DNA of 64,000 bases from positions 124,001 through 188,000 of the forward strand of contig NZ_RXOE01000003.1 of NCBI RefSeq assembly GCF_003965815.1. Direction: 5' to 3'. Origin of the DNA: Variovorax gossypii. Lineage in GTDB: Bacteria > Pseudomonadota > Gammaproteobacteria > Burkholderiales > Burkholderiaceae_C. Shown here one piece after another: positions 29,633 through 50,746 of this stretch (position 1 is the stretch's first letter; every line of letters begins with the position of its first letter). The translations under genes were made by a program, and so were the position numbers. The notes under the pieces were generated by a model. The model was not told the DNA's origin. It did no database searches and was given only the letters and a program-made list of their open reading frames with translations.

Positions 29633-30358
29633 TCAGCGGTTCTCGAAGGGGGTCTCGTCGGCGCCGCGCAGCACGATGTCGAACTGGTAGCCCAGCGCGT
29701 AGCCTTCCTCGGTGATGTCGAGGCTGAAGTCGGCGATCAGGCGGTTGCGGTAGCGCTCGGGCGTGCCGGTGATCATCGGGTCGTACTGCATCAGCGGGTC
29801 GCCGGGGAAGTACATCTGCGTGACCAGGCGGCTCGCGAAGCTCTGGCCGAACAGCGACAGGTGGATGTGTTGCGGGCGCCAGGCGTTCGGGTGGTTGCCC
29901 CACGGGTACGCGCCGGGCTTGATGGTGAGGAAGCGGTAGCGGCCTTCGCTGTCGGTGAGGCAGCGGCCCGCGCCGAGGAAGTTGGGGTCCAGCGGCGCGT
30001 CGTGCTGGTCGACCTTGTGCACGTAGCGGCCGGCGGCGTTGGCCTGCCACAGCTCGACCAGCGTGTTGGCCACCGGGCGGCGGCGCTCGTCGAGCACGCG
30101 GCCGGTGAGGATCATGCGCTCGCCCAGCGGCTCGCCGTTGCGGCGAGCGTTGCGCGTGAGGTCGTTGTCGAACTCGCCGATGCTGTCGTGGCCGTACACC
30201 GGCTGCTGCAGCTCGCCGAGGGAGGCCTTCAGCGGAATGAGCGGCTTCTGCGGGCCGCGCTTCACGGTGGACTTGTAGCCGGGGTAGACGTAGCTGGGGT
30301 GGGCATCCCAGTCGCGCGGCGTGAGGATGGGCGAGGCGCCCTTGGTCTTGGTCAACAT
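29633..30358 (-). CDS. pcaH: Protocatechuate 3,4-dioxygenase beta subunit
   Basis: 241 residues from the ATG at 30358 (CAGGAGAC upstream); an upstream in-frame start at 30400 overlaps the control region. Intradiol dioxygenase motif LVELWQANAAGRYVHK, and the Fe(III)-ligand region YRFLTIKPGAYPWGNHPNAWRPQHIHLSLFG with the Tyr and HIH residues. It holds the non-haem iron. Divergent from pcaQ. The rest of the pca pathway is not in the window. Confidence 0.94.
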   Translation of the reverse strand: MLTKTKGASPILTPRDWDAHPSYVYPGYKSTVKRGPQKPLIPLKASLGELQQPVYGHDSIGEFDNDLTRNARRNGEPLGERMILTGRVLDERRRPVANTLVELWQANAAGRYVHKVDQHDAPLDPNFLGAGRCLTDSEGRYRFLTIKPGAYPWGNHPNAWRPQHIHLSLFGQSFASRLVTQMYFPGDPLMQYDPMITGTPERYRNRLIADFSLDITEEGYALGYQFDIVLRGADETPFENR

Positions 30359-30426
30359 GAACGTTGTCTCCTGTCGTGGGACGAATCCGGAAGCCGCCAC
30401 TTTAGAAGCGGCATCCGATGATGTAA

Positions 30427-32226: not shown

Positions 32227-35200
32227 ATGACCGCTCAACAAGCATCGACCAATACGACCGAGGGACTTGCCGCCGCTGGCGCTGCTCCTGTGGTCATCGC
32301 CCAGGCTACCGTCACACCGCTCGGCACTCCCGGCGTGGTGAGTTCGGCGGCACCCGCCGCAACCGCGGCCCCCGCCGGCATCGGCACATTATCGAATGCC
32401 ACGCCAGGCGTTGCGGTGATGCGCGACGGTGTCCGCATTCCCGTCGATGGCAATCAGACACTGATGGCCGGCGACCGCGTGATCGTTCCGCAGGACGGCC
32501 ACGCCAATGTTCTCTTCCCCGGATCGGCCACCAACAAGGCCCCGCTCGCAGGTGTGTTCACCGGCGGCACCGACGCCACCATCGGCTCGACCAAGCTGCC
32601 CGGCGGCCTCGAACAAGTGAATGTGGATGTCGCCTCGGGCGACCTGCAGGTGACCCCGCCCGACAGCGATGCGGATGCCGCTGCCCTGGCCGTCACCAAG
32701 AAGCTCGCTGCCGGCAGCGGCATCGGGCTGGGTGAATTCGCACTGGGCGCCCTGGGCGCCGCAGCCTTGGGTGCCGCGCTCAGCGGCGGTGGCGGCGGCA
32801 GCGACAGCGCGTTCCCGCTGCTCGTCGGTTCGGGCAACCCGACCAACCCTGGCGATTCCGACGCGGATGCCGACTCTGATGCGGATGCCGACGCCGACGC
32901 GGATGCGGACGGTGATGCAGACGCCGATGCTGACGCCGATGCCGATGCCGATGCGGATGCGGATGCGGATGCAGACGCCGATGCCGATGCCGATGCCGAT
33001 GCCGACGCCGACGCCGACGCCGATGCCGATGCCGATGCTGACGCTGACGCTGACGCCGATGCCGACGCCGATGCCGACGCTGACGCTGACGCCGATGCCG
33101 ATGCCGACGCTGACGCCGATGCCGATGCCGATGCCGATGCCGATGCCGATGCCGATGCCGATGCCGATGCCGATGCAGACGCAGACGCAGACGGCGACGC
33201 CCTCCTCAACCCCGGCGACAGCCTCGTCAACCACGCCGTGGACAGCCTCGGCGGCGCGCTCGGCCTCGGCGATTCGCTCACGCCGGTCACCAACGCGGTC
33301 GACGGCCTGACCGACACGCTCGACGACGTGCTGGCTCCGCTGCTCGGCAGCGAGTTCACGCCGAACGACCCCAACCAGTTCGACCCGATCGACAACACCG
33401 TCGGCAGCGTGACCGACCTGCTGGGCGACAGCCTGAGCCCCACGCTCGACAACCTGCTGGGTGCCGGTGCCACCACCGCCATCCTCGGCACGGTGCTGGG
33501 CCAGGTGGACTACCTGACCGACGCGCTGGACAACGGCCTGACCAACCTGGTCGGTGACCACGGCATCATCAGCGGCCTGACCGACGCACTCGGCCTGAGC
33601 GGCCTCACCGACCAGCTGGTGGGCAACGACGGCCTGCTGGGCGGCGTGCTCGACAACGTGCTCGGCGAAGGCAGCCTGGTGTCCGGCCTGCTGGCCGAAG
33701 ACGGCCTCGTGGGCGGCCTGCTCGGTGACGACGGCATCGTCGGCGGCCTGCTCGGCGAAGACAGCGCGGTGGGTGGCCTGCTGGGCAACGTGCTCGGCGA
33801 CGACGGCCTCGTCGGCGGCCTGCTGGGCGACGGCGCGGTGGGCAGCCTGACCGGCGGCCTGCTGGGTGACGACGGCCTGCTGGGCGGCCTGCTCGGCGAC
33901 GGCAGCGCGGTGGGTGGCCTGCTCGGCGACGACGGCCTGGTCGGCGGCCTGCTGGGCGGCGAAGGCACCCTTTCCAACCTGCTCGGCAGCGGCGGCCTCA
34001 CCGGCGAGCTGCTGGGCCACGGCGGCCTGGTCGACAGCCTGCTCGGCCAGGACGGCGCCATCTCCGGCATCATCGCCGACAGCCCGCTGGGCGGCCTGCT
34101 CGGCGGCGAAGGCGGCCTGCTTGGCGGCGCGGTGGGTGGCCTGCTCGGCGACGACGGCCTGGTCGGCGGCCTGCTGGGTGACGACGGCCTCGTGGGCGGT
34201 CTGCTCGGCAACGACGGCTTGCTCGGCGGTGTCCTGGGCGGCGACGGCCTGCTGGGCGGTGTGCTCGGCGATGACGGCCTGCTCGGCGGCGTGCTGGGCG
34301 GCGACGGTCTCGTCGGAGGCCTGCTCGGTGGCGACGGCCTGCTGGGTGGCGTGGTGGGCGATGACGGTCTGGTCGGCGGCCTGCTGGGCGGCGACGGCCT
34401 CGTGGGTGGCCTGCTCGGCGACGACGGTCTTGTCGGCGGCCTGCTGGGTGACGACGGCCTGCTGGGCGGCGTGCTCGGCGACGACGGCGTCGCCGGCGGC
34501 CTGCTCGGGCCGGACGGCCTGGTCGGCGGCCTGCTGGGCGAAGAAGGCCCGGTCGGTGGCCTGCTGGGTGAGGACGGCATCGTCGGCGGCCTGCTCGGCG
34601 GTCTGCTGGACGGCGTCGGCGGTGGCGGCACCCCCGGCACCGGCGCCGCGCTGCTCGACCCGGCCGACGGCGTGCTCGGCAACCTGGTCGACGGCCTGAA
34701 TCAAGGCGTGCTCGGCGGGCTCGGCCTGACCAATGTGCTCGGACCGGTGGTCGGCGTCGCCGACGGCCTGACCGACACGGTCGGCGGCCTGCTGGGCCCG
34801 GTGCTCGGCACCAGCTTCTCGGAAAACGACCCCAACGTGCTCGACCCGGTCGACGGCCTCGTCGGCCAGGTGGCAAGCGGTGCCGCGGGCCTGCTGAGCC
34901 CGCTGACCGACCAGCTGCTCGGCACGAACACGACGGCGGCGCTGCTGAACGGCGTCACGGCGCAAGTCGACTACCTGACCGACGGCGTGGCCAACGTCCT
35001 GTCCGGCGACGGCCTCCTTGGCGGTGTCCTGGGTGACGACGGCCTGCTGGGCGGCGTGCTCGGCGGTGACGGCGGTCTGCTCGGCGGCGTGCTGGGTGAC
35101 GACGGCCTGCTGGGCGGCGTGCTCGGCGGTGACGGTGGTCTCCTCGGCGGTGTTCTGGGTGACGACGGCTTGCTGGGTGGCGTGCTCGGCGGTGACGGTG

Positions 35201-36588
35201 GTCTGCTCGGCGGCGTGCTGGGTGACGACGGCCTGCTGGGCGGAGTGCTCGGTGGCGACGGCGGCCTCCTCGGTGGCGTGCTGGGTGAAGACGGCCTGGT
35301 CGGCGGCCTCCTCGGCAGCGTGACCGGTGGCGACGCTGGCGGCCTGCTCGACGGCATCCTCGGCAGCGACGGTCTGGTCGGTGGCCTGCTCGGCAGCGTG
35401 ACCGGTGGCGACGCTGGCGGCCTGCTGGATGGCGTGCTCGGCAGCGGCGGCCTGCTCGGCAGCGTGACCGGTGGCGACGCTGGTGGTCTGCTCGACGGCG
35501 TGCTCGGCAGCGACGGCCTGGTCGGTGGTCTGCTCGGCGGCGTGACCGGCGGCGACGCTGGCGGCCTGCTCGACGGCGTGCTCGGCAGCGACGGCCTGGT
35601 CGGTGGTCTGCTCGGCGGCGTGACCGGCGGCGACGCTGGCGGCCTGCTCGACGGCGTGCTCGGCAGCGACGGCCTGGTCGGCGGCCTGCTCGGCAGCGTG
35701 ACCGGTGGCGACGCTGGTGGTCTGCTCGACGGCGTGCTCGGCAGCGACGGCCTGGTCGGTGGTCTGCTCGGCAGCGTGACCGGCGGCGACGCTGGCGGCC
35801 TGCTCGACGGCGTGCTCGGCAGCGACGGCCTGGTCGGTGGCCTGCTCGGCACCGTGACCGGTGGCGACGCCGGCGGCCTGCTCGACGGCGTACTCGGCAG
35901 CGACGGCCTGGTCGGCGGTCTGCTCGGCAGCGTGACCGGCGGCGACGCTGGCGGCCTGCTGGACGGCGTACTCGGCAGCGACGGCCTTGTCGGTGGCTTG
36001 CTCGGCACCGTGACCGGTGGCGACGCCGGCGGCCTGCTCGACGGCGTACTCGGCAGCGACGGCCTGGTCGGCGGTCTGCTCGGCACCGTGACCGGCGGCG
36101 ACGCTGGTGGCCTGCTGGACGGTGTCCTCGGCAGCGACGGTCTCGTCGGCGGTCTGCTCGGCAGCGTGACCGGTGGCGACGCTGGCGGCCTGCTCGACGG
36201 CGTACTCGGCAGTGACGGCCTCGTCGGCAGCCTCCTGGGTCAAGACGGCCTGGTGGGCAGCCTGCTCGGCGGCCTGACCGGCAGCGACGGCGCGGTGGCC
36301 AACATCCTGCAGCCGGTGACCGACGTCGCCGGCAGCGTGACCGACACCGCGGCTCCGGTCGTGTCGAGCGCCACCAGCGCAGTGCACGACGCGACCGCTC
36401 CGGTGACCGACATCCTGGCAGGCGCCACGACGACGGTCGCTCCGGTGGCGGATGCCGTCAACAGCACAGTGAGCGGCGTCGAACATGCCGTGACCCCGCT
36501 GGTGACCGAGGTTGTGACCCCGATCACCAGCCTGGTCGAGCACGCCGTGTCGCCCGTGACGAACGTCCTGCACGGCCTGCTGGGCTGA
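32227..36588 (+). CDS. Large low-complexity repeat protein, probable type I-secreted surface protein
   Basis: 1453 residues from the ATG at 32227. Parts: (1) residues 1-205, a non-repetitive head with [31 protein letters not shown], resembling the N-terminal retention-module/BapA-prefix domains of type I-secreted adhesins, and an Ala/Gly hydrophobic stretch near 185-195; (2) residues 210-325, an almost pure Asp-Ala tract; (3) a roughly 120-residue module (326-446) and its diverged copy (809-928), sharing NDPN-DP-D and QVDYLTD; (4) Gly/Leu/Val/Asp repeats between and after them, including twelve copies of a 26-residue unit (1030-1338); (5) a Val/Thr/Ala-rich C-terminus. No signal peptide and no RTX nonapeptides. 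Very acidic. A type I secretion system lies downstream. Function inferred: adhesin or matrix protein. Confidence 0.75.
32854..33201 (+). repeat. Asp-Ala dipeptide tract (GAY-GCN hexanucleotide repeat)
   Basis: About 58 hexanucleotide units encode residues 210-325, almost all Asp-Ala, with a few Asp-Ser or Asp-Gly at the ends. Third-codon bases vary (GAT/GAC, GCC/GCG/GCA/GCT), so the repeat is old or selected at protein level. Slippage would change length in steps of two residues without a frameshift. Confidence 0.95.
33630..34640 (+). repeat. Gly-Leu-Asp decapeptide-type repeats, first block
   Basis: Encodes about 34 variants of a ten-residue unit of the form [10 protein letters not shown] (30 bp), with GDD, GED, GND and GGD variants. 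Copies differ at silent and coding positions. The periodic small-hydrophobic-acidic pattern may form a solenoid or a glycine-rich extended structure; no fold can be assigned by eye. Confidence 0.85.
35005..36240 (+). repeat. 63-bp and 78-bp tandem repeats, second block
   Basis: Four copies of a 21-residue unit ([10 protein letters not shown] + [11 protein letters not shown]) at about 35035-35290, then twelve copies of a 26-residue (78-bp) unit built from [17 protein letters not shown] and SDGLVGGLL at 35314-36240. The residue after LLG alternates Ser, Gly or Thr. The third 78-bp copy is shortened by four residues. The near-identity of units points to recent amplification or recombination. Confidence 0.92.
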
Positions 36589-36670: not shown

Positions 36671-36684
36671 GCGAAAGGACCAAC

Positions 36685-37188
36685 ATGAAAAAGAACTTCC
36701 AGACACTGGCCATCGTCGCGCTCGGCGCAGCACTCGTGGGCTGCGCGGCCCCCAAGAGCGGTCGTGACGATGCGACCTACTACTACTCGAACAAGGCCGC
36801 CACCGCGGTGCCGAAGGTGGAGCCGGCACCGCCGCCGCCGGTGCAGAACGGACCGGTCGGCGTGCCGAAGATCGTCTACTTTGACTTCGACAAATACAAC
36901 ATCAGGCCCGGCGACCGGAACATCGTGGAGGCTCACGCGAGCTTCCTGCGCAACCGGCCGCAGAGCCGGGTCGTGATCGAGGGCCACACCGACCAGCGCG
37001 GCGGCCGCGAATACAACCTGGCGCTGGGCCAGCGCCGTGCCGACTCGGTGGCGCGCGCGCTCACGCAGCTCGGCGTGCCCGCCGAACGCATCGAGGCCAT
37101 CAGCTGGGGCCTGGAAAAGCCCGCATCGAACGAAACCACGGAGGAGGGCTATCAGCTCAATCGCAGAGCCGAATTCAGCTATCGCTGA
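36685..37188 (+). CDS. Pal-like OmpA-family lipoprotein
   Basis: 167 residues from the ATG at 36685 (GAAAGGA upstream). Lipoprotein signal MKKNFQTLAIVALGAALVGCAAP with the lipidated Cys at residue 19. After a Pro-rich linker, the OmpA C-terminal peptidoglycan-binding domain begins at IVYFDFDKYNIRPGDRNIVEAHA, with VVIEGHTDQRGGREYNLALGQRRADSV containing the conserved D and R that contact meso-diaminopimelate. Its setting beside a secreted repeat protein and type I secretion system, away from tol genes, suggests a dedicated anchor rather than the main Pal. Confidence 0.88.
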   Translation: MKKNFQTLAIVALGAALVGCAAPKSGRDDATYYYSNKAATAVPKVEPAPPPPVQNGPVGVPKIVYFDFDKYNIRPGDRNIVEAHASFLRNRPQSRVVIEGHTDQRGGREYNLALGQRRADSVARALTQLGVPAERIEAISWGLEKPASNETTEEGYQLNRRAEFSYR

Positions 37189-37300: not shown

Positions 37301-40300
37301 ATGATGTCCTTCACAGACCAGCTCCACGCCTGCCACGAACGCCTTGTGTCGGTGTGCGCGGCGCTGCCGGCCCCGTATCCGGCCTTCACGCTGTTCTTCT
37401 CCGTGAGCGACGGCTCGCAACGTGCGCACGTGGTGCACGCGCGGGCCGCCGATTTCGAGACCGCCTGGCGCGAGGGCGCCGGACACATGGAGAGCTGGGT
37501 GCGCGAGCGCGGCATCGTGTCGCCGTGGCTGCGCATCGACTGGGTCGAGGGCGCGAGCCCGATGGACTGGGCCCAGTTCAAGACCCAGCTCACCGCCGTC
37601 AAGCGCAACTACTTCCGCCTCGGGCTGGCCTTCGACAAGGACTTCTCGATGGCCTTCACCGAGCAGGAGCTCAACGCCAACGCGATGCTGTGCGGCGACT
37701 CGACCATTCCGCACTCGGTGGTGAACGCGCGCAACTTCGAGGTCTACAGCCAGGCGCGCTTCGAGCGCTCGCCGCCGCTGGACATGTCGGCGGACCAGCC
37801 GGTCTACCTGCTCGCGACCGTGGGTGTGTTCTGCCAGCCCGACGGCGTGGTGCACAAGCTGGTGGGCACGGGGCTCGACGCGGGTCGTCGGCAGCTGCCG
37901 GCGCTCAATCCGCAGTCGGTGCTCGACCTCGTGCGCAGCGGCTCGTCGTACCTGGCGCGCCAGGTGCAGGGCGACGGCCTCTTCGTGTACGGCTACTTCC
38001 CGTGCTTCGACCGCCGCATCCCGACCTACGACGCGATGCGCCACGCGAGCGCGGTCTACGCCATGCTCGAGTCGTGGGAGCTCACGCGCGACGAGACGCT
38101 GCGCGCGGCCATCGACCGGGCGCTGGACCATCTCACCGGATCGCTGATCCGCGACTACACGCTGCTCGACGGCCGCGCCGTGGCCTTCCTGGTCGACACC
38201 GGCGGCGAGATCAAGCTCGGCGGCAACGCGGCCTGCGTGCTCGCGCTGGTGAAGTACTGCGAGCTGATGGAAACGCGCCGCTGGCTGCCGCTGCTGGAGC
38301 GGCTCGCGCTGGGCATCGTCTCGCTGCAGGACCCGGCCACCGGACGCTTCAACCACGTGCTGCACGCGGCCGACCTCACGGTCAAGCAGGCCTCGCGCAT
38401 CATCTACTACGACGGCGAGGCGGCCTACGGACTCATGCGCCTGTACAGCCTCACGCGCGAGCCGCAATGGCTTGCCGTGGTGGAGAAGGCCTTCGACCAT
38501 TTCATCGCCAGCCAGCACTGGCAGGCGCACGACCACTGGCTCAGCTGCTGCGTGCACGAGCTCACGCACTGGAGCCCGCAGGAGAAGTACTTCCGCTTCG
38601 GCCTGCAGAACGTGGCGGGGTATCTCGATTTCGTGCTCGACCGGAAGACCACCTTCCCGACGCTGCTCGAACTCATGCTGGCCGCGCAGCAGATGCTCCA
38701 GCGGCTCGAAGGCATGCCCGCGATGCGGCACCTTCTGGACGAGCTCGACACCGAGAAGTTCTACCGCGCGCTCGACTACCGCGCGCACTACCTGCTCAAC
38801 GGTTTCTTCTGGCCAGAGATGGCGATGTACTTCCGCCGTCCGTCGACGGTGGTGGGCTCGTTCTTCATCCGCCACCACTCGTTCCGCGTGCGCATCGACG
38901 ACGTCGAGCAGTACCTCTCGGGCTTCGCCGCCTACCACCGCTACCTGGTGGAGCGGCGCGCCTCGCCGGGCGCCGCGGGCACGGGCTCCGGCGGAGGCCG
39001 CGACGACGGCGCCGTGTGGACCGCGAGCGAGATGGCGCGCGTCACCGGCGGCGAATGGGTCGTGAAGCCCGAGGACGGATGGCGCGCCGCCGGCGTTGCG
39101 CAGCGCTCCTTCATGCGCAAGGGGCGCGTGGTGTTCGACCACCAGACGCGACCCTCGAAGACGCCGCTGGCGGCGGTCACGCTCAAGGGCGTGCTGCAGC
39201 CGGCCGCGGCCGTGCTGTGCTCCGACCCCAAGCCGCATCTCGACAAGCGCGTGCCCGTGCTCAAGGTGTCGAACGTGCTGCAGGCCGTGCTGGAGCTGGG
39301 CGACCATGCGCGCGCCGAATTCGCGGGCCGCGTGTGCGGCGTGCTCGGCAGCGGCGCGGGCAGCGGCACCGTGGCCGCCATGCTGGCCGGCGCGCTGACC
39401 GTGTGGGGCGAGGTCGGCCAGCCCGAGGGCAACATCAGCCTGCCGTCGGGCATCGCCTGGAACATGACCTGCATGCCGCGCCATGCGGCCTACTGGGTGC
39501 TGGAGATGGGCACCTCGCACATGCCGGCTTCCGCGCAACTGGTGCGCCCGTCGCTCATGGTGGTGACGGGGCTCTCGACCGCGTCGCAGAAGCACCGCGG
39601 CCCCTCGGAAGCGGCCGCGCGTCTCGACAGCCGGATCTTCCAGGCCATGGTGCCGGGCGACAGCGTGGTGCTCAACCGCGACATGGCCGAGTTCGCGACC
39701 TTCGCCGAGGCGGCGATGGCACAGCAGCTTCAGATCGTGACCTGCGGCGAGCACAGGGACGCCGACGTGCGCCTGCTCGGCTTCGACCACGGCGAGGTGC
39801 AGGCGCTGGTGGCGGGCGAGCCCTTCCAGCTGTGGCTGAATGCGCCGGGACGCCACATGGGCGCGAGCGCCATCGCGGCGCTCGCTGCACTGCAGGCGAT
39901 GCGCCTGCCGCTGGCGGCCGCGGTCGAGCCCTTCGCGCACTTCGAGCCGCCGGGCGGACGCGGCGCGCTGCACACCATTCACATCGGCGGCGGCAGCTTC
40001 AAGCTGATCGACGAGACCTACGACGCCAACCCGAGCTCGATGCGCGCGGCGCTGGAGCTGCTCTCGCAGGCGCCCTGCGAGCCGGCGCGGCGAGTGGCGA
40101 TCCTCGGCGACATGCAGGAGCTCGGCCCCGCCGCGCAACGCCACCACCTCGACCTCGAGGCCGAGCTGCTTGCATCGCAGCCCGACCGCGTGCTGCTGTG
40201 CGGACCGCTGATGCGCGCGCTGCATGCGCGCATCCGCACCAAGGTCCGCTCGCACTGGTTCGTCGACGTGTCCGACCTGTCGACCGCGCTGGGCGGGCTG

Positions 40301-40387
40301 CTGCAGCCCGGCGACTGGGTGTTGGCGAAGAGTTCCGCGGGCATCGGCCTGTCGAGGCTGGCCCGCGTTTTGAAAGCACTGCCATGA
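37301..40387 (+). CDS. Fusion of alpha-helical toroid-like domain with degenerate MurF-like ligase
   Basis: 1028 residues. Residues about 170-560 look like an (alpha/alpha) toroid of glycosidase or epimerase type: YGYFPCFDRRIPTYDAMRHASAVYAMLESW, IIYYDGEAAYGLMRLYSL, HDHWLSCCVHELTH. From about 568 the protein follows MurF: an N-terminal domain (ASEMARVTGGEW), a central domain with EMGTSH (735-740; MurF EMGANH), VVLNRD, and a C-terminal domain with YDANPSSMRAAL (from 907) and GDMQEL (936-941). The ATP loop reads GSGAGSGTV (683-691) where Mur ligases have a GKT; the lysine is missing. The usual carbamylated Lys segment is also altered. It may bind but not hydrolyse ATP, or use another chemistry. 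Its stop overlaps a small gene. Confidence 0.75.
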   Translation: MMSFTDQLHACHERLVSVCAALPAPYPAFTLFFSVSDGSQRAHVVHARAADFETAWREGAGHMESWVRERGIVSPWLRIDWVEGASPMDWAQFKTQLTAVKRNYFRLGLAFDKDFSMAFTEQELNANAMLCGDSTIPHSVVNARNFEVYSQARFERSPPLDMSADQPVYLLATVGVFCQPDGVVHKLVGTGLDAGRRQLPALNPQSVLDLVRSGSSYLARQVQGDGLFVYGYFPCFDRRIPTYDAMRHASAVYAMLESWELTRDETLRAAIDRALDHLTGSLIRDYTLLDGRAVAFLVDTGGEIKLGGNAACVLALVKYCELMETRRWLPLLERLALGIVSLQDPATGRFNHVLHAADLTVKQASRIIYYDGEAAYGLMRLYSLTREPQWLAVVEKAFDHFIASQHWQAHDHWLSCCVHELTHWSPQEKYFRFGLQNVAGYLDFVLDRKTTFPTLLELMLAAQQMLQRLEGMPAMRHLLDELDTEKFYRALDYRAHYLLNGFFWPEMAMYFRRPSTVVGSFFIRHHSFRVRIDDVEQYLSGFAAYHRYLVERRASPGAAGTGSGGGRDDGAVWTASEMARVTGGEWVVKPEDGWRAAGVAQRSFMRKGRVVFDHQTRPSKTPLAAVTLKGVLQPAAAVLCSDPKPHLDKRVPVLKVSNVLQAVLELGDHARAEFAGRVCGVLGSGAGSGTVAAMLAGALTVWGEVGQPEGNISLPSGIAWNMTCMPRHAAYWVLEMGTSHMPASAQLVRPSLMVVTGLSTASQKHRGPSEAAARLDSRIFQAMVPGDSVVLNRDMAEFATFAEAAMAQQLQIVTCGEHRDADVRLLGFDHGEVQALVAGEPFQLWLNAPGRHMGASAIAALAALQAMRLPLAAAVEPFAHFEPPGGRGALHTIHIGGGSFKLIDETYDANPSSMRAALELLSQAPCEPARRVAILGDMQELGPAAQRHHLDLEAELLASQPDRVLLCGPLMRALHARIRTKVRSHWFVDVSDLSTALGGLLQPGDWVLAKSSAGIGLSRLARVLKALP

Positions 40388-40779: not shown

Positions 40780-42603
40780 ATGATCAAGTTCCTCCTGCCA
40801 AGCCAACTGGTTGCCGAGACTCCGGACGAGCCCGGTGCCAGTCCCTACGCGGGCGCGCTGAACGCCGCGTTCCGCGCCGCCTACCCGCTCGTGAAGAGCG
40901 CCGCATGGCGCTCGCTGCCCATCAGCCTGTTCGGGCTGCTGCCCTCGATCTTCCTGCTGCAGGTGTATGACCGCGTGCTCTCGCGCAGCGGCACGTCGAC
41001 GCTCGCCGCGCTGGTCAGCGGCATCCTGTTCTTCCTGTGCATCGAGTTCTGGCTGCGCACGCGCCGCTCGCGTCTGCTGCGCAATGCGGGCGCCATCGTC
41101 GACCACGGCATCTCGGGCGCGTTGCTCGATTCGATGCTGGGCCGGCCGCTGCGCGCGCTCGAGGCGCGGCCCGCGTCGGTGTGGCACCTGTACTTCCGCG
41201 ACGTGGCTTCGGTGCGCGGCACCATCACCGGCGGGCTGGCTCAATCCATCTTCGACCTGCCCATGGCCGTCTTCGCGCTGGTGGTCATCGGCATCGTCGC
41301 GCTGCCGGTGCTGCCGGTGGTGTTGCTGTTCCTCGCGATCATGTCCTTCCTCGCCTGGTGGTGGGCCGACGAGGTGCGCTCCGGCCGCGTCGAGGAAGTG
41401 CAGCGCGGGCGTGGCCTGGAGCGCGTGACCGCCGAGATCTGCAACGCGCGCGAGACGCTCAAGGCCCAGGCCAACGACGGTCCCACCGTCGAGATGTGGC
41501 GCCAGACCTACAACGCCTGGCTCGCCGAGAGCTTCAGCAAGAACGGCCAGATCGAGAGCGCGCGCGACGGCACCACAGTGCTGCTGACCGTGTTCTCCGT
41601 CGTCGTCGTGACCGTGGGCGCGGTCTCGGTGATGGAGCAGTGGATGACGGTGGGCGGCCTCGTCGCCTCGAACATGCTGGCGCTCAAGGCGCTTCAGCCG
41701 GTGGCGGGGCTGGTGTCGAACTGGCGCTCGCTGGCCACCGCGAAGGAAGCAGCCAAGCGCCTGGAGACCGTGCTGCGCGAGCCGGTGGAGAAGCCGCCCA
41801 CGGGCATGACGCTGCCCCAGCCGCTGGGCCGCATCACGCTGAAGGACGTGAGCTTCAGCTTCACCGAGAACTCGCAGCAGCCGGTGCTGGAAAACGTCGA
41901 CCTCGACATCGGCCCGGGCGGCCTGCACGTGATCGTGGGGCGCAACGGCGCGGGCAAGTCCACGCTGGTGAAGCTGCTGTCGGGCCTGTACACGCCCACG
42001 CGCGGCATCGTCAGCATCGGTGAATACGACCTCTCGCAGTTCGGCCGCGAAGAACTCTCGCGCTGGATCAGCTACCTCTCGCAGGAGGTCTACTGGTTCG
42101 GCGGTTCGCTCATCGACGTGATGCGCCGCAACGCGCCGGGCCAGAGCGACGAGCAGATCGTCGCGGCCTGCAAGCTCTCGGGCGCGCACGACTTCATCTC
42201 GCGGCTGCCCGACGGCTATCGCACCATGGTGGGCGAAGGCGGCACCGGCGTGTCGGTGGGCGAGCGGCGCAAGCTGGCGCTGGCCATGAGCTTCCTGCGC
42301 AAGCCCTCTGTGCTGGTGCTCGACGAGCCCAGCAACGACCTCGATTTCCAGAGCGAGCGCAACCTGCTCGCTACGCTGCTCGCGGTGGCCAAGGTACGCA
42401 CCGTGGTGGTGGTCACGCACTCGCTGCGCATCGTCTCGGCGGCCAACGTGGTCTACCACGTCACCGGCCAGGGCAATGTGGAGCAGGGCGCGGCCGCTGT
42501 GATGGTGCCGAAGCTTTTCGGCGTGAAGAAGCCGCTGGTGGCGCTGGGCGATTCGGAAGACGGCGCGGCGGGAGCTACGCCGGCCTCCCGTTCGATGGCA
42601 TGA
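40780..42603 (+). CDS. Type I secretion ABC transporter (permease-ATPase)
   Basis: 607 residues. An N-terminal membrane domain (about 40-330) with helices around SLPISLFGLLPSIFLLQVYDRVL, the family-typical PrtD/LapB-like start, and an ATPase domain: Walker A GRNGAGKST (387-395), Walker B VLVLDEPSND (D515, E516), H-loop VVVVTHSLR. The signature loop is VSVGERR (491-497) rather than LSGGQ. It lacks an obvious N-terminal C39 peptidase or C39-like domain. With the next two genes it would export a substrate directly to the outside; the repeat protein upstream is the obvious candidate. Confidence 0.9.
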   Translation: MIKFLLPSQLVAETPDEPGASPYAGALNAAFRAAYPLVKSAAWRSLPISLFGLLPSIFLLQVYDRVLSRSGTSTLAALVSGILFFLCIEFWLRTRRSRLLRNAGAIVDHGISGALLDSMLGRPLRALEARPASVWHLYFRDVASVRGTITGGLAQSIFDLPMAVFALVVIGIVALPVLPVVLLFLAIMSFLAWWWADEVRSGRVEEVQRGRGLERVTAEICNARETLKAQANDGPTVEMWRQTYNAWLAESFSKNGQIESARDGTTVLLTVFSVVVVTVGAVSVMEQWMTVGGLVASNMLALKALQPVAGLVSNWRSLATAKEAAKRLETVLREPVEKPPTGMTLPQPLGRITLKDVSFSFTENSQQPVLENVDLDIGPGGLHVIVGRNGAGKSTLVKLLSGLYTPTRGIVSIGEYDLSQFGREELSRWISYLSQEVYWFGGSLIDVMRRNAPGQSDEQIVAACKLSGAHDFISRLPDGYRTMVGEGGTGVSVGERRKLALAMSFLRKPSVLVLDEPSNDLDFQSERNLLATLLAVAKVRTVVVVTHSLRIVSAANVVYHVTGQGNVEQGAAAVMVPKLFGVKKPLVALGDSEDGAAGATPASRSMA

Positions 42604-42643: not shown

Positions 42644-43960
42644 TTGAAAATAGACCTGCCGCAGATTCTTCAGGACGAGAACGACAAGCGCGCGGCACAG
42701 ACCTCGCCGCAGGGACGGCGGCGCCAGTGGATCATCGGCGGTGCGATCGGCCTGCTCGCACTGGTCGGCCTGGGCTTCCCGATGGAGACCGTGGTGGTCG
42801 CGCCGGGGCGCGTGATCCCGTCGGACCGCGTCAAGTCCATCCAGCATCTGGAGGGCGGCATCGTCAGCAACGTGCTGGTGAAGGAAGGCGAGAAGGTCAA
42901 GCAGGGCCAGTCGCTGGTCGAGATCGACCTCGGCGGCAGCGGCCTCAACCTCGAGGAGCTCACCGCCCGCTACGCCGCCACGCAGGCCACGCGCGTGCGG
43001 CTCATGGCCGAGAGCCGCGGCCAGCCGCTCACGCGCGCATCCTTCGCGACAGACATCGACGAGGGCGTGCTCGAAGGCGAGACCGGTGCCTACCAGGCGC
43101 GCGCGCTCGAGCAGCGCGGCGTGATGGCCGGTGCCGTGTCGGGCCTGGAGCAGGCGCGCAGCAAGAAGCTGGAGCAGGAGGCCAAGGCCAAGGGCCTGAG
43201 TGACCGGCTCGCGCTGATGCAGAAGGAGCTGGAGATCTCCGAGCAGCTGCTCAGCGAGAAGCTGGTCGGACAGGTCGAGGTGCTGGAGAAGCGGCGCCAG
43301 GCCGAGAGCGTGCGCAGCGAGCTCGCGGTGGCGCGCCAGGGCGTCGTCTCGGCCAATGCCTCCATCACCGAGGCGCAGGCCAAGATGGCCGAGGCCGAGG
43401 GACGTTTCCGCCGTCGCGCATCGGACGAGCTCGCCACCGTCGAGCGCCAGTTCGCGAGCCTGGCCGAGGACCTGGCGCGCGCGCGCACCCAGCGCTCGCG
43501 CACCGTGGTGAAGGCGCCGTCGGACGGCATCGTGAAGGGCCTGCGCAACTCCAGCCCGGGCTGGGTGGTGAAGCCCGGCGAATCGATTCTCGAAGTGGTG
43601 CCCGACGAGGACGAGATCATGGTCGAGGCGCGGCTCAATCCCAACGACCGCGGCTTCGTCGAAGTGGGCCAGCAGGCGCGCGTGAAGATCACCGCCTACG
43701 ACTACCTGCGCTACGGCGCGGTCGAGGGCAAGGTCAAGCTGGTGGCGGCCGACGCCGACCGCGACCCGGCCATCTCCAACGGCGCGCCTTACTACCGGCT
43801 GCTCATCAGCATGTCGCAGTCGCACGTGGGCCGCGACGAGAACCGCATCACCGCCGGCATGGAGTCCGAAGTGGACTTGCGTGTGGGCACCGACCCGTTC
43901 ATCTGGTACATCCTGCGACCCGTGCTCAAGCTTCGCCGCGAAGCCTTCCGCGAACCATGA
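42644..43960 (+). CDS. HlyD-family periplasmic adaptor of type I secretion
   Basis: 438 residues from a TTG start, the only usable start because a stop lies 24 bases upstream in frame. One N-terminal membrane anchor (WIIGGAIGLLALVGLGFPM, about 24-42), a lipoyl half-motif (APGRVIPSDRVKSIQHLEGGIVSNVLVKEGEKVKQGQSL), a long coiled coil (about 130-280) and a C-terminal beta-barrel (RTVVKAPSDGIVKGL, GMESEVDLRVGTDPF). It connects the ABC transporter to TolC. Its stop overlaps the next start by 4 bases. Confidence 0.92.
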   Translation: MKIDLPQILQDENDKRAAQTSPQGRRRQWIIGGAIGLLALVGLGFPMETVVVAPGRVIPSDRVKSIQHLEGGIVSNVLVKEGEKVKQGQSLVEIDLGGSGLNLEELTARYAATQATRVRLMAESRGQPLTRASFATDIDEGVLEGETGAYQARALEQRGVMAGAVSGLEQARSKKLEQEAKAKGLSDRLALMQKELEISEQLLSEKLVGQVEVLEKRRQAESVRSELAVARQGVVSANASITEAQAKMAEAEGRFRRRASDELATVERQFASLAEDLARARTQRSRTVVKAPSDGIVKGLRNSSPGWVVKPGESILEVVPDEDEIMVEARLNPNDRGFVEVGQQARVKITAYDYLRYGAVEGKVKLVAADADRDPAISNGAPYYRLLISMSQSHVGRDENRITAGMESEVDLRVGTDPFIWYILRPVLKLRREAFREP

Positions 43961-45567
43961 AGTACCGCAAACCGGTCGATCTGCGCCGCGTGGGCACCGG
44001 CGCCGTCTGCGCGGCCCTGTACGGAAGCCTGTATGCGGGCCTCGCGGGCCTCGCGCTGCCGCCCGCCGCCTTCGCGCAGGAGCAGCAGCCGTTCCAGGAA
44101 GAGACGGTCATCACCTCGCCGGCCGTTCCGCTGGTTCTCGCGCGCAGGCTCTCGCAGCCGTCGCTCGGCGCGGCCAGCTATGCGCAGCAGGTGAAGCAGG
44201 CCCTGATCGCGCTGTCGCAGGAATACCCCGAGGTGCAGACCGCGCAGGCCGCGGCCAACACCAGCAGCTACGGCGTGGATGCCGCGAAGCAGGCACGCTA
44301 CCCGAAGTTCAAGGTCGGCACCTCGTCCGGCAACTACAACAGCGGCGCGGCCAATGCCAAGACGCAGAGCTACACGGTGCTCACCGCCGAGGCGCGCGTG
44401 AGCCTGCTCGACGGCGGCGCCATGAGTGCAGCGCAGCGCGCCGCGGAGGCCGGCAACCAGGCGGACGACGAAGCCGTCATCACCACATCGCAGAAGGTGG
44501 TGCTGGACGCGCTCACCGCCTACCTGCAGGTGCAGCGCTTCGACCTGAAGAAGCAGATCGCGCACAAGGCCACCGAGGTGGTGGCCGAGCTCTCGAAGGC
44601 CGAGGCCCGCCGCGTGGCGCTGGGCGTGAGCGGCGACAACGACCTCAACATGGCCGCCTCGCGCCGCGCGCTGGTGGCCGCGCGCGAATCCGACTTCGAG
44701 GCCCAGCGCGACGAGGCGATCGCCAAGTTCCGCAACTACTTCAAGTTCTCGCCCAATGCCGAGTCGCTGCCCGTGCTCGCGGCGCCCGCGCAATGGCGCA
44801 TCGCCACGCAGGAAGAAGCGCTGCGCCGAGCCGAGGCGCGCAGCACCGAGATCGCCGAGGCGCAGGGCCGCATCGAGCGGGCGAGGGCGCTGGCCGACCA
44901 GCAGGACGCGAGCCTCTACCCCACGCTCGACGCCGTGCTCGTGAAGAGCAGGGACCCGCGCGGCGTGTCGCCGCAGGACCCGACGCGCGCGGCCTTCGAA
45001 CTCAACTGGAACTTCGGCAACGGCTTCGACCGGCAACTGCGCCTGAAGTCGGCGCTGGCCGAAGTCGCCAACCAGGAGGCCAAGCTCGAAGGCGTGAAGA
45101 ACAACCTGTTCGAGCTTACGGCCGCCTCGTGGTCGCGCACCGTCTCCGGCCGCGAGCGCGAGAAGCAGCTGATGGAAGCCGTCAGCACCTCGGGCCAGGC
45201 CTTCCGCGGCCGCCGCCGCCTGATGGAATTCGGCCGCGAGACCCTGCCCAAGGTGCTCGACGCCCAGCTCGACTACTACACGCTGCTGTTCGACTACGTC
45301 GACGGCGTCTTCGACCTGCGCATCTCGGAACTGCGCCTGGCGCGCACCACCGGCGAACTGCGCATCGACCCGCTGAGCCCCAACGGCTGGATCGACGGCC
45401 TCTTCGGCGCCCCCAGGCGCCAGGTGCTCACGGAAGACGGCCTGCTAGGCACCCTCTGCATCTCGAGCAACACCGCCTGCGCAACCGAGCCGGTGGCCGA
45501 ACGCACGGTCGGAATGGCAGGGCCTCCGCCCGCCCTGCGCAAAACCCAGCGACTCTCCATCCCCTGA
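43957..45567 (+). CDS. TolC-family outer-membrane channel of type I secretion
   Basis: 536 residues with a signal peptide (ALYGSLYAGLAGLALPPAAFAQ) and the outer-membrane efflux protein fold: helical repeats around EYPEVQTAQAAANTSSYGVDAAKQARYPKFKVGTS and LSEYRVALGVSGDNDLN-type segments (here ARRVALGVSGDNDLNMAA), and ELNWNFGNGFDRQLR as a strand-rich portion of the second half. The C-terminus has an extra tail with Cys residues. Overlaps the HlyD-family gene (ATGA), so it is the last gene of a translationally coupled type I secretion operon. Confidence 0.9.
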   Translation: MKYRKPVDLRRVGTGAVCAALYGSLYAGLAGLALPPAAFAQEQQPFQEETVITSPAVPLVLARRLSQPSLGAASYAQQVKQALIALSQEYPEVQTAQAAANTSSYGVDAAKQARYPKFKVGTSSGNYNSGAANAKTQSYTVLTAEARVSLLDGGAMSAAQRAAEAGNQADDEAVITTSQKVVLDALTAYLQVQRFDLKKQIAHKATEVVAELSKAEARRVALGVSGDNDLNMAASRRALVAARESDFEAQRDEAIAKFRNYFKFSPNAESLPVLAAPAQWRIATQEEALRRAEARSTEIAEAQGRIERARALADQQDASLYPTLDAVLVKSRDPRGVSPQDPTRAAFELNWNFGNGFDRQLRLKSALAEVANQEAKLEGVKNNLFELTAASWSRTVSGREREKQLMEAVSTSGQAFRGRRRLMEFGRETLPKVLDAQLDYYTLLFDYVDGVFDLRISELRLARTTGELRIDPLSPNGWIDGLFGAPRRQVLTEDGLLGTLCISSNTACATEPVAERTVGMAGPPPALRKTQRLSIP

Positions 45568-45748: not shown

Positions 45749-47184
<1,436 letters not shown>

Positions 47185-47200
47185 CGGAAAGAAAGGGGCG

Positions 47201-49255
47201 TCAGTACACCAGCATGGGCAGGCCCTTGCAGTCGAGCGACTTCAGGTTCACGTCGACCTGGCCGAGGTTGATGCCGAGCACGTTGGTCAGGAGCGGGGTG
47301 AGGATGGATTCGCCAATTGCGTTGAGGACGGGCTTAAGCAATCCAGCTAGAACGGACAATGCGTTTGAGACTTTGCCGCCTGCATTGGCATCGGTTGTCT
47401 TGCTCAGGGTGTCCTTGATCATTTTTTTGCACCCAGTGACGTCGCCGCCACCGAGAAGAATCACACCCGAACAGGGATTGGCAATGCTTGTAAGCAGGTC
47501 GCCCAGTCCGTTCAGCAAGCCTGTAAGCAGACCGCTGGTTTGTGAGGTTTGGCCGATGACGGCGCGAGCCTGGTCGAGTCGCTGAGCGCGGCAAGAGGAC
47601 GTATCCGCAGAACAGATGCTAGCCGTTTGATCCCAGATCTGATTGGTAAGCTTGTCCAGGTCTTGGCTGCTAGGAGTGCCTGTTGGCGTAGGTCCTTCGA
47701 AGAGCAGGTTGGTCAACTGGCCGAGGAGGTCCGATACCAGCGTGCCCAGTTGCAGATTGTTGACCGGCGTGGTGCCGGTCTCGCCTTCAGCGAGGGTCAG
47801 CTGAGCATCCGGTGTGGCTTCCAGTGCGGCCAGGGCCAGATGGTTGTTCACCTTGAGCAGGCCCAACACGTTGATGAGTTCCATGTCCTTCAGTGTGGCC
47901 GGATAGCTGCAGGCATTTGTCTTGGAGAACACGTCCGTCGACGCGATGTCTCCCACGCACACGTTCGCGATCTTCCTGTTCACGGAAAACTGCACGCGAT
48001 CCTTGCCGCTCACGGGGTCCTGTAGTGCAGGCGTGCACATGTCGGTGATCGTGCCGGTGCCCGTGACCGCATCGAGCACGATCGGCAGGTCGAGCTTGAC
48101 CAGCGGCGCCAGCAGCGAGCCGAGCAGCCCGGCGTCGGTTGTCACATGGATGAAGGTGCGAACCTGTGCGTTGTAGGCCTTGGCTCCGATGCCGCCGATG
48201 CCAATGGACGGAGGCTGGATCACGCCCGCCTTCACCGACACCTTCGCCAGCGACAGAAGATTGATGTTGAGCGAGTTGATGTCGACCGCGTGCTGAGAAG
48301 TCGCCACGCCGATCGAGGTGTAGAGCAGGTCCAACGCACTCACTCCAACGTTCAGCGCACTGCTACCCGTGCCGCCCGGCGAAATGATCTGCGCGAACAA
48401 TCCACGCGGCCCATCGGCGAGCGAGCCCAGCTGCACCATCAGGTTGGTGAGCCCGAGCTTGGCCTGGATGGCCTGCAGCAGCGCGATGTTGCTGGACAGC
48501 AGGCTGTTCTGCCCGGCCAGCGTAACGATGGCATTGAGCAGGTCGCCCAGTGCAACCGAGCGACCTGCAAGCAGCGTGTTGAGCTCGCCCACACCGATGT
48601 CGGCAGCTACCGGAATGCCTAGCGCAGCCAGCAGCCCGCCGGGCGTGATCTTGGCCTGCGCCAAGCCGTCATAGGCCACGAGCGAGGTGCCCGACAGGTC
48701 GAGCCCGATGCCCTTGAGCAGTCGCCCCAGCGTCGAGTCTCCGCTCACGACGACGAGCTTGCTGCCCACGGAGAACTCGGCGAGCGGCGCGCTCAGGGCT
48801 GCCACCGCGCTCACGCTGATGAGCCGGTTGCCCGTGAAGAACGACAGCAGCGTGGGCGAAGCCTTCTGGAAGGCCACGCGCACCGCGTTGGCCGTGCCGG
48901 TGACGGCCGGCGACTGGAAGCTGGTGTCCTTGTCCCAGTAGCCGCACTGGACTTCGCCCGGCAGCAACGTGAGGCCTGTCGGCATGTTGCCCGGCACGCC
49001 GCCGGACGCGCCGTTGGCATTGAGCTGCGCCGCCGTGGTCGCCGCCGTGCAGCCGGCACGGATCTGCTGTGCACCCGCCAGTGCGGCGAGGTCGGCCGCT
49101 TTCTGGAACTCGCGCTTCATGAAGTACATGAAGCCGATCTCGGTGCCCACCAGCGTGATGACGATCAGGCTCAGCGCGATCGCGGTGTTGATGATGACCG
49201 AGCCGCGCGATCGCGAGCGGCTCGAGGAAGAAGGTCTCCGGAGTACGGTGTTCAT
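47201..49255 (-). CDS. tadG: TadG-like pilus-locus protein
   Basis: 684 residues. N-terminal hydrophobic segment [53 protein letters not shown], the TadE/TadG membrane anchor with the [10 protein letters not shown] motif, then a large extracytoplasmic region rich in Leu, Gly, Thr and Ser with scattered Cys. It ends [12 protein letters not shown]. TadG-type proteins are minor components of the Tad secretion machine. It belongs to the minus-strand operon after two TadE-like genes and before the enhancer-binding protein. Confidence 0.82.
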
Positions 49256-49268
49256 GTCGTTGACACCC

Positions 49269-49769
49269 TCAGGAAGACTTCAGCGCGGCGGTGGTCCGGC
49301 TGCGTAGTTGATCGGGCATCCACTGGCTGGTGTCCAGCAGCGGCATCGTCGGCAGGAGTCGGTTGGCGCTGTACGGATAGGTCACGGTCACGACATAGCG
49401 GATGTAGGCGCCCGGGCCGCTCGGGTCGCTGCGCGCCACGTCCACCGTGACGTTGGAGACGATCCAGCTGCGCCGTGTCGTCACGCTGGTGTTGGCCGAC
49501 ACGGGCACGACGAGCGAATTGGCCAGCGAGTCGTACACCGCGTCCTTGACCCGCGGGTCGGCCGCGGTCGGCGCCGGAGTGAGCAGGCCTACGGCCCGTG
49601 CGCCTTCCTCCGAGGCGCGCGTGACCGACTGCTGCGTGTAGAGCACCGCACCGAAGGTCGCGAGCGCGTAGAGCACGCTGAACAGAACGACAAAGACCAG
49701 CGCGAACTCGATGGCAGCCACGCCGCGCTCGCTGCCCTGCAGCGACCGGGTGCGCCCGCAGCGGTTCAT
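49269..49769 (-). CDS. tadE: TadE-like pseudopilin (first)
   Basis: 166 residues from the ATG at 49769. N-terminus SERGVAAIEFALVFVVLFSVLYALATFGAVL is the TadE prepilin-type helix (the Gly-Glu cut region, then AAIEFALV), followed by a periplasmic part with QQSVTRASEEGARAVGL. It is a minor pilin of the Flp system cleaved by TadV. The start overlaps the stop of the preceding TadE-like gene by 4 bases. Confidence 0.87.
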   Translation of the reverse strand: MNRCGRTRSLQGSERGVAAIEFALVFVVLFSVLYALATFGAVLYTQQSVTRASEEGARAVGLLTPAPTAADPRVKDAVYDSLANSLVVPVSANTSVTTRRSWIVSNVTVDVARSDPSGPGAYIRYVVTVTYPYSANRLLPTMPLLDTSQWMPDQLRSRTTAALKSS

Positions 49770-50245
49770 GGTGCCCTCCCGTCGAGCAGCATGCTGGCCT
49801 TGCCGACGATGGTGGTGGGCATGGCGAAGCTCGGGAACGGCGGCAGCAGCATCTGCAGGTTGGTGGCAGTGACGGTCACGACCATCTGGCAGCGTGTGTC
49901 CCACGTGGCGCCGCAGGTGGGAGCCGTGCAGTTGTTGCTGACCACGCCGCACACGGTGGCGCTGACGGTGCGCGTGACCACCGCGGGCATCCAGTTGCTG
50001 CTGGCCGTTGCCGTCGTCTGGGCCTGGGTGGCGCGTGCCGCGAAGGTCGACTGGTAGCGCAGCGCGGCGCGCGCGCCGTCTTCCGCCGCGTTCTGCAGCC
50101 CGAGCCGGAACGCGAACAGCATGCCGTAGCTGATGATCCCGTAGAGAAGCGCGAAGAAGATCAGGAACACCATGGCGAACTCGACCGCGTACGCGCCGCG
50201 CTGGGAGTGCGCGCGCGTGCGGGTGAGAAGACGTGGTGTTGCCAT
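49766..50245 (-). CDS. tadF: TadE-like pseudopilin (second)
   Basis: 159 residues. HSQRGAYAVEFAMVFLIFFALLYGIISYGMLFAFRLGLQNAAEDGARAALRYQ: a TadE/TadF helix and the AAEDGARAAL segment. A short extracytoplasmic domain with four Cys follows. It likely forms a pair with the adjacent pseudopilin. Calling it TadE or TadF is not decidable by eye; the two are similar in architecture. Confidence 0.83.
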   Translation of the reverse strand: MATPRLLTRTRAHSQRGAYAVEFAMVFLIFFALLYGIISYGMLFAFRLGLQNAAEDGARAALRYQSTFAARATQAQTTATASSNWMPAVVTRTVSATVCGVVSNNCTAPTCGATWDTRCQMVVTVTATNLQMLLPPFPSFAMPTTIVGKASMLLDGRAP

Positions 50246-50281
50246 TGCGATGCCTGGCTCTCTGTTCGTGCCTGGGGCTGC

Positions 50282-50746
50282 CTACTTCGGCGCACCGCCG
50301 CCGGAACTGGAACCGCCGCCCGATGTCGACTTGACGCTGGACGTCATGCGCTCCGGGATCGGGTATTCGAAGCTCTTCAGGTAGCGCTCGTAGCTGCGGC
50401 TGGCGATGTCGCCCGCGATGGTCCGTGGCGTGGCGGACGAGATTTCTCCACCGCGCTGCCAAGCGAGCAGCCCCTGCGTGGCGTCTCCCACCTGCAGCCG
50501 CTCATAGACGTACTCGCCGGCCTCGGCCATCTCATCCTGGCCTTGCTGCGGCGCTGCTGTTGCGGCAGCGGCAGGTGTCGGCGCGCTTGCTGCAGGCGCT
50601 GCGGGCTCCTGTGCCTTGGCCGCGCTGGACGGCTGTTGAAGTTGTTGTTGCTGTTGCGCGAGTGCCATGGGCGCGGCCACCATCAGCGTGGCGGCGAAGC
50701 CGGATGCGCAGAGCGCGGCAAGACGGGCAGCGGGCGTTTTTTTCAT
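50282..50746 (-). CDS. DUF3613 family protein of the tad locus
   Basis: 154 residues from the ATG at 50746. A signal peptide (MKKTPAARLAALCASGFAATLMVAAPMALA) is followed by a Gln/Ala/Pro-rich linker and a short conserved domain, VYERLQVGDATQGLLAWQRGGEISSATPRTIAGDIASRSYERYLKSFEYPIPERM, which is the DUF3613 core. The family is commonly found in Tad operons of betaproteobacteria, with no assigned role. Its start overlaps the tadD stop by 4 bases. The tail is Ser/Gly-rich. Confidence 0.8.
   Translation of the reverse strand: MKKTPAARLAALCASGFAATLMVAAPMALAQQQQQLQQPSSAAKAQEPAAPAASAPTPAAAATAAPQQGQDEMAEAGEYVYERLQVGDATQGLLAWQRGGEISSATPRTIAGDIASRSYERYLKSFEYPIPERMTSSVKSTSGGGSSSGGGAPK

Follow-up and report, generated by a model that had tools for sequence, protein, structure and literature searches.

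We analyzed a 64,000-nucleotide stretch of the Variovorax gossypii genome (assembly GCF_003965815.1, contig NZ_RXOE01000003.1, positions 124,001 to 188,000 of the forward strand), referred to here as the window, which contains a gene fusing an (alpha/alpha)6 toroid to a region that resembles the ligase MurF but has no lysine in its P-loop. The gene is part of an operon with the order adhesin-like open reading frame (ORF) carrying an Asp-Ala tract, OmpA-family protein, fusion gene, ABC transporter, HlyD, and TolC (Table 1). The exporter genes (ABC, HlyD, and TolC) next to a large repetitive adhesin mark this as a type I secretion adhesin operon, and the adhesin-like ORF is probably the secreted substrate. 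This context is the main clue to the function of the fusion protein. Sequence comparisons indicate that the gene, which sits in the operon of an adhesin with Asp-Ala repeats, encodes a real pseudo-MurF that is fixed in its clade and maintained by selection; it adds a new variant to the uses of the Mur fold. Past its Asp-Ala tract, the adhesin-like ORF is dominated by repeats of one type (window 33510-36500).

Table 1. Coordinates of the fusion gene, its domains and motifs, and the surrounding operon in the window
Feature	Position	Strand	Remarks
Large repetitive adhesin-like ORF	32227..36588	+	Opens at TTG 32188, first ATG 32227; no Pfam match
(Asp-Ala)n dipeptide tract in adhesin-like ORF	32854..33201	+	Tract count
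OmpA-family protein	36685..37188	+	Opens at TTG 36631, first ATG 36685; PF00691 E 9.1e-25 (searched as 36679-37185)
Toroid-pseudo-MurF fusion gene	37301..40387	+	ATG start, 1028 aa
N-terminal domain, residues 1-200	37301..37900	+	Without Pfam match; fold weakly similar to 1vaj/1zq7/1wsc
(alpha/alpha)6 toroid, residues 201-555	37901..38965	+	Cellobiose 2-epimerase/N-acylglucosamine 2-epimerase fold; conserved in alignment
MurF-like region, residues 573-1028	39017..40384	+	Pfam, MurF alignment, fold
Dead P-loop GVLGSGAGSGTVAAML, residues 680-695	39338..39385	+	Ser688 codon 39362-39364 at lysine position
Asp776 at carbamyl-lysine position	39626..39628	+	Alignment to MurF
MurF C-terminal domain, residues 846-1028	39836..40384	+	Lowest dN/dS measured, 0.032
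YDANPSSM motif, residues 907-914	40019..40042	+	Asp908 clade-invariant
ABC transporter, type I secretion type	40780..42603	+	Profile match
HlyD-type membrane fusion protein	42644..43960	+	Profile match
TolC-like outer membrane protein (OEP)	43957..45567	+	Profile match

The fusion protein exceeds the Pfam cutoffs for Mur_ligase_M (1.9e-9) and Mur_ligase_C (4.6e-14) and is matched by the MurF of Pseudomonas aeruginosa (4cvk) in phmmer with an E value of 9e-25. The curated MurF models match it below their cutoffs (TIGR01143, 179.5 of 288.6 bits; NF010693, 222.5 of 544). Its predicted structure (mean pLDDT 87.7, pTM 0.60) has the three-domain Mur ligase fold and superposes on the MurF of Acinetobacter baumannii (4qf5) with a Z score of 36.8 (434 residues, rmsd 3.9), which is the outcome of a comparison that an earlier note on this DNA had proposed; Z scores against the MurF structures 4cvm (P. 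aeruginosa) and 4qf5 lie between 35 and 37, and the EMG, ANPxSM, and GDMxELG motifs are shared. The landmarks that the same note had listed (EMGTSH, YDANPSSM, and GDMQEL, together with GSGAGSGTV and ARLDSRIF) are all present in the ORF, and the alpha-toroid domain that it had proposed is borne out by the fold, since the predicted structure matches cellobiose 2-epimerase 5zig with a Z score of 26.6 (320 residues, rmsd 2.6). The likeness to cellobiose 2-epimerase and N-acylglucosamine 2-epimerase, which spans window residues 200-556 with Z scores of about 26, is one of fold; there is no significant sequence match. No epimerase was among the 3 matches obtained when PDB sequences were searched with hmmsearch up to an E value of 10, and the EpiA model reached only 0.051. 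Residues 1 to 200 form a confidently predicted separate domain (pLDDT 92), whose best fold matches (Foldseek E 6.5e-3) include 1vaj (Z 8.3), 1zq7 (Z 5.9), and 1wsc (Z 4.5). We take these three to be AMMECR1 proteins, but the label found no confirmation when the domain's profile was compared with 12 AMMECR1 sequences (hhalign probability 0.6%, within the range of 20 column-shuffled controls) and is therefore only a lead.

In the phmmer alignment to 4cvk, GSGAGSGTV falls on the P-loop (sequence GVLGSGAGSGTV), and Ser688 stands where the lysine is expected, as the earlier note had read from the motif. The GK[ST] signature was present in none of the 35 orthologous fused proteins (28 from Variovorax, including that of the window, and 7 from Pseudacidovorax and Xenophilus) and in all 7 fused homologues from Microbulbifer, Aquamicrobium, Sphingopyxis, Croceibacterium, and Oceanimonas; L061/L016, whose frame is broken near the 3' end and whose loop has no lysine, and Hydrogenophaga L081 are counted outside the 35, and L023, L118, L151, and L153, all with intact loops, outside the 7. 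The earlier note had held that homologues with a normal loop would mark a one-off change. Such homologues exist, yet a one-off change is ruled out, since the lysine is missing in 35 of 35 orthologues. Similarly, the toroid fusion, which had seemed unusual, is indeed present but not unique, because intact-loop fusions occur in Microbulbifer, Sphingopyxis, Aquamicrobium, Oceanimonas, Croceibacterium, Agrobacterium, Sulfitobacter, and the congener G028 (L023), whose toroid lies outside the lysine-less clade in the toroid tree. When 41 MurF domains were placed on a tree, a single branch (SH-aLRT 100) separated all 10 lysine-less rows from the rest, and the Hydrogenophaga row was very long; both this tree and the toroid tree (62 rows) were built from hand-chosen rows with a quick method. 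The topology fits a single origin of the loss, which would suffice and be the simplest account. A second position also separates the groups: Asp908 of YDANP is invariant in the 35 orthologues, and Asn occupies the same position in all 7 homologues with an intact loop.

The alignment to 4cvk further places Asp776 at the lysine of the carbamyl-lysine stretch, the aligned 4cvk lysine being presumably the carbamylated one. This change carries little weight because the only other plain MurF-like match in the window genome (C7:329775; L004/L006) is also without that lysine; it combines an intact GSNGKTT loop with Asn at this position, and we accordingly rejected the change as a demonstration that the enzyme is inactive. 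Asn likewise occupies the position in MurF-like genes of three congeners (L028, L034, and L035). The window protein differs from MurF in (i) the missing P-loop lysine, (ii) scores under the MurF model cutoffs, (iii) the fusion to a toroid, (iv) its place in an adhesin operon, and (v) the presence of another MurF-like gene with an intact loop in the same genome.

Across the 28 Variovorax sequences, the three MurF domains had median dN/dS values of 0.219 (N-terminal), 0.170 (middle), and 0.032 (C-terminal); the P-loop segment reached 0.261 and the toroid 0.183. The corresponding operon values, obtained for 27 of the same 28, were 0.146 (ABC), 0.141 (HlyD), 0.319 (TolC), and 0.286 (OmpA), this comparison covering those four genes and the fusion gene, with the adhesin outside it. 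The C-terminal domain is thus four to six times below the toroid, ABC, and HlyD. Pairs with dS outside 0.1 to 2.5 were dropped from the domain set, which left 347 to 377 of 378 pairs, and pairs outside 0.1 to 2 from the operon set; both sets exclude L061/L016, Hydrogenophaga L081, and the seven Pseudacidovorax and Xenophilus sequences. Mean dS was not lowered in the C-terminal domain (0.506 versus 0.393 in the toroid), and the constraint therefore acts on the protein; an overlapping gene was rejected as its cause for the same reason. Insertions relative to the window sequence occur in the P-loop at position 686 in 4 of the 28 sequences (lengths of 4, 4, 10+11, and 24 residues), and the only others in the MurF part are single residues at 613 and 737. 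No stop codon was found in the 28 sequences. These alignments indicate that the nucleotide site is released from constraint while the C-terminal domain is held tightly, so that the MurF part looks like a retained pseudo-ligase rather than a product of decay. The earlier note had concluded from a double loss that the function was changed and not decaying. That conclusion is supported by the clade-fixed loss of the P-loop lysine, the strong purifying selection on the C-terminal domain, and the concentration of insertions in the dead P-loop; the half of the argument drawn from the carbamyl-lysine is weak, given the Asn in the genome's other MurF. The note did not link the fusion to the adhesin and exporter genes around it.

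To place the window in a wider context, we compared loci that encode related toroids (designated by L numbers). They were picked by similarity to the query protein and are not a random sample, and the tract and secretion counts given here are accordingly not frequencies. A homologue of ABC, HlyD, TolC, LapG, or LapD was present in 77 of 79 fetched loci, a few of them with an ABC match alone; none of the five was found within the fetched stretches of L100 and L106. Tracts of at least 10 Asp-[Ala/Ser/Thr/Gly] pairs, referred to as Asp-x tracts, were present in 61 of 89 toroid loci (L005, L006, L036-L114, and L146-L154, with the short loci L001-L004, L007-L035, and L115-L145 left out); in L155-L157, the tracts were read separately with a threshold of eight pairs or more. 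Among the lysine-less loci, 24 of 35 have a tract, and in the remaining 11 the contig ends at most 3.9 kb upstream of the gene. The arrangement by which we propose to define Asp-x systems, a toroid gene beside an Asp-x tract adhesin, is found in the window itself (tract 32854-33201). The toroid was matched in 16 of 398 sampled genomes of the window's phylum, two of them partially, and in 54 plasmid records, 53 of which match over at least 80% of it. Most Enterobacteriaceae loci contain a toroid alone or a glycosyltransferase-bearing toroid beside lapG/lapD homologues and a tract adhesin. The resemblance to LapA/LapG/LapD systems lies in these homologues, which adjoin most enterobacterial toroid genes fetched; the window appears to differ, as no Peptidase_C93 was found in its genome, which is 86% complete, and no LapG- or LapD-like ORF was found in the window.

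Three loci separate the adhesin from its route of export. (i) A plasmid of Staphylococcus simulans encodes, in direct succession, an SdrD-B-like adhesin that terminates in an LPDTG motif and whose tracts comprise 507 Asp-Ala and 95 Asp-Ser pairs, a toroid that stands alone, and a Mur ligase whose GKSS loop is intact. (ii) Agrobacterium pusense has the order TolC, BapA-type adhesin (321 Asp-Ala pairs), ABC, HlyD, and toroid/MurF with GKTT. (iii) In Sulfitobacter, a toroid/MurF with GKTT adjoins an adhesin-like ORF with 158 Asp-Ala pairs. The common partner in these loci is the Asp-x repeat adhesin and not the export route, and a type I secretion system as an essential partner was rejected because of the LPDTG motif of the plasmid adhesin. 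The stand-alone toroid of S. simulans (L155:8827-12513) lacks any Pfam match, yet its annotation reads poly(glycerol-phosphate) alpha-glucosyltransferase. A distant toroid (L154:5784-8957) adjoins an ORF whose Asp-Gly tract has Gly in 88 of its 89 pairs. A described adhesin of this kind is BapA of Paracoccus denitrificans (bapBCD), which, according to the available part of PMC5588039, contains 891 Asp-Ala repeats, is encoded beside a type I exporter, and is required for biofilm formation. It resembles the window adhesin in the tract and the exporter, as judged from the description and not from the genome; that part of the paper mentions neither a toroid nor a ligase, and nothing on BapA modification was found in the available part of PMC13235738.

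The enzyme modules that accompany the toroid are exchanged. Fusions were seen to intact MurF-like domains, to PGA_cap plus MurF-like domains, to group 1 glycosyltransferases, to weakly AspH-like domains, and to YheC/D ATP-grasp domains (L120, L121, and L125); in L123:1-1488, the toroid is followed by a C-terminal stretch with a weak Fic match just below the cutoff. Elsewhere the toroid stands alone and the enzyme is encoded separately in the locus, as a Mur gene (L103, L104, and L110), a PGA_cap/Mur gene (e.g., L098 and L101), or an ATP-grasp gene (L108), and two congeners (L147 and L148) carry a stand-alone further toroid copy with an AspH-like gene just upstream. On the toroid tree, the module types require at least 18 changes. 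The closest solved structure to the glycosyltransferase module of L111 is SdgB (7ec1/7vfk, E 1.4e-38); 7vfk is SdgB, which glycosylates Ser in DSD motifs (PMC8561734, in the part available). Ser-rich tracts were found in 5 of 7 loci with a fused glycosyltransferase versus 0 of 18 with intact Mur, PGA_cap-Mur, or AspH-like modules (Fisher 4e-4), a post hoc comparison among related genomes that covers tract-bearing loci only and has the loci with no partner found (e.g., L092, L093, L095, L097, and L102) in neither group. The staphylococcal glycosylation of Ser-Asp repeats by SdgA and SdgB is similar in that an enzyme gene lies beside a dipeptide-repeat adhesin (PMC8561734 and PMC7029136), and the glycosyltransferase module of the relatives is homologous to SdgB. 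The window system differs in that its module is a Mur-type pseudo-ligase and in its toroid, a partner that goes unmentioned in the available parts of both papers.

The window genome also encodes a toroid paralogue (C7; L005:8970-13907; 1579 amino acids) that combines a toroid, PGA_cap, and a MurF-like region with an intact GTVGKSST loop; it lies downstream of an OmpA-domain protein, with no tract in the fetched stretch. Of the 17 genomes that carry the lysine-less gene, 16 have a further toroid copy, compared with any toroid in 4 of 20 congeners without that gene (Fisher 7e-6, uncorrected for kinship, so that p-values from these related genomes overstate independence). GK[ST] is intact in 12 PGA_cap-type copies from 11 genomes, 10 of which are among the 17. 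Among 15 intact PGA_cap-type paralogues, which mix several subfamilies, dN/dS was 0.31 for the toroid and 0.46 to 0.55 for the MurF parts. This intact paralogue is a candidate partner of the pseudo-MurF.

In the surroundings of the operon, genes for a sigma-54 activator and for Tad/TadE pilus-type proteins, a second surface-attachment cluster, lie downstream of the exporter on the minus strand (window 45751-50462), and the beta subunit of protocatechuate 3,4-dioxygenase is encoded on the same strand at 29633-30397. A role in antiphage defense was rejected, as there was no PADLOC match at E 0.01.

Taken together, the computed folds, clade-wide lysine loss, selection pattern, operon context, module swapping, and tract association form the basis of a reading that we hold with confidence and doubt about evenly balanced, namely, that the fusion protein may act as an accessory to the adhesin with Asp-Ala repeats, encoded two genes upstream, and that its ligase may have become a noncatalytic partner in this clade. 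The conserved core would consist of the toroid and the N-terminal domain, joined to or encoded beside a tailoring enzyme across bacteria, and would bring this enzyme to the Asp-x repeat in the cytoplasm, ahead of export. Amide bond formation by Mur and ATP-grasp ligases proceeds through activation of a carboxylate, and AspH-type enzymes hydroxylate Asp or Asn; these chemistries and that of SdgB would all fit an Asp-x repeat as a substrate. The ancestral module in the clade of Variovorax, Pseudacidovorax, Xenophilus, and Hydrogenophaga would have been a MurF-like ATP-dependent carboxylate-amine ligase. Its nucleotide site would have been lost, most simply once, after which the P-loop drifted and the C-terminal domain stayed very strongly constrained in Variovorax. 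This domain would now most likely serve as a binding or adaptor surface without ATP chemistry, for the adhesin or for a partner, possibly the intact toroid-PGA_cap-MurF paralogue of the same genome. By analogy, the plant MurE PAP11 suggests that a Mur ligase can take such a role: it is part of the plastid RNA polymerase, a complex unconnected with the cell wall, and makes contacts partly through its C-terminal domain (PMC12681378, in the part available). PAP11 differs in Mur family, partner, and kingdom, and its authors still consider a catalytic function possible.

Several observations weigh against this reading, in addition to the choice of loci by similarity and the kinship of the genomes. 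No tract was found in the fetched stretch of 28 of the 89 toroid loci, some of which are cut short and others not. The PGA_cap paralogue has no tract in the Variovorax loci L005, L100, L105, and L106 and no exporter genes nearby in L005, L100, and L106; three of the further toroid copies carry an internal TGA; and the paralogue poorly fits a tightly coupled partner because its intact-loop MurF domains evolve faster. The match between tract letter and module is also imperfect, with Ala-rich tracts beside a glycosyltransferase in L090 and L114 and Ser-rich tracts without one in L099, L108, and L053. An alternative that we regard as unlikely is that the protein acts in the synthesis or modification of a surface glycan or of a poly-amino acid of the poly-gamma-glutamate kind, not on the adhesin, and shares the operon through a role in biofilms. 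The PGA_cap fusions of the paralogues, the sugar-epimerase fold of the toroid, and the existence of a glycosyltransferase module would agree with it. However, an Asp-x repeat adhesin is a frequent neighbor in different phyla and with different export routes, the glycosyltransferase module most resembles an enzyme that glycosylates proteins at DSD repeats, and the ATP-grasp and (weak) AspH-like modules suit a peptide substrate.

The retained pseudo-ligase must also be weighed against a MurF part that is a decaying passenger of a toroid that does all the work. The MurF module is dispensable in some lineages, since it is missing from three toroids of the clade (two from Xenophilus and one from a congener; L076, L109, and L146), the toroid of Hydrogenophaga L081 (11500-12500) ends at its own stop and is overlapped by an ORF with a lysine-less MurF middle domain and no C-terminal domain, and the copy of a Variovorax metagenome-assembled genome (L016/L061) is frame-broken near its end; the drift and insertions of the P-loop point the same way. 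Against decay stand the dN/dS of the C-terminal domain, far below that of the toroid and the exporter genes, and the open frames of all 28 Variovorax sequences, a set to which the broken copy does not belong, and we consider a decaying passenger quite improbable. Rather less probable still is a ligase that continues to use ATP at a noncanonical site, with a basic residue from elsewhere, such as Lys764 or Arg774, in place of the P-loop lysine. At least 90% of the 28 Variovorax sequences share Lys764, all 35 orthologues share Arg774, and Glu735 of EMG is mostly kept. The Lys764 stretch is, however, missing from both Pseudacidovorax rows aligned, and across the 35 orthologues the lysines of the middle domain all stay below 90% conservation, a level attained only by K1010 and K1025 in the C-terminal domain. 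Nucleotide binding would, moreover, be unlikely in P-loops with insertions of 4 to 24 residues. An assembly or frameshift artefact is refuted: nothing supports it at the window copy, and an open frame with a lysine-less loop recurs in 27 other Variovorax records and in 7 of other genera.

A broader proposal, which we put forward tentatively and hold a little short of even confidence, is that the toroid proteins may constitute an unrecognized, phylum-crossing machinery that modifies Asp-Ala and Asp-Ser repeats of adhesins through swappable catalytic modules. Mur and ATP-grasp modules would amidate or extend Asp carboxylates, AspH-like modules would hydroxylate, and SdgB-like modules would glycosylate, and the Mur module of the window clade would be a pseudoenzyme adaptor, possibly steering the intact paralogue. 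No description of a toroid family for adhesin modification was found in the open-license PMC literature. The Mur ligases, which are drug targets, are assumed to function in the synthesis of the cell wall or of poly-amino acids. If the reading of the window gene is correct, the fold would have a new use, in the form of a strongly selected bacterial Mur pseudoenzyme in an adhesin operon. Should the wider pattern hold as well, the long and so far unexplained Asp-Ala tracts of BapA-like biofilm adhesins would be the substrates of a dedicated enzyme family.

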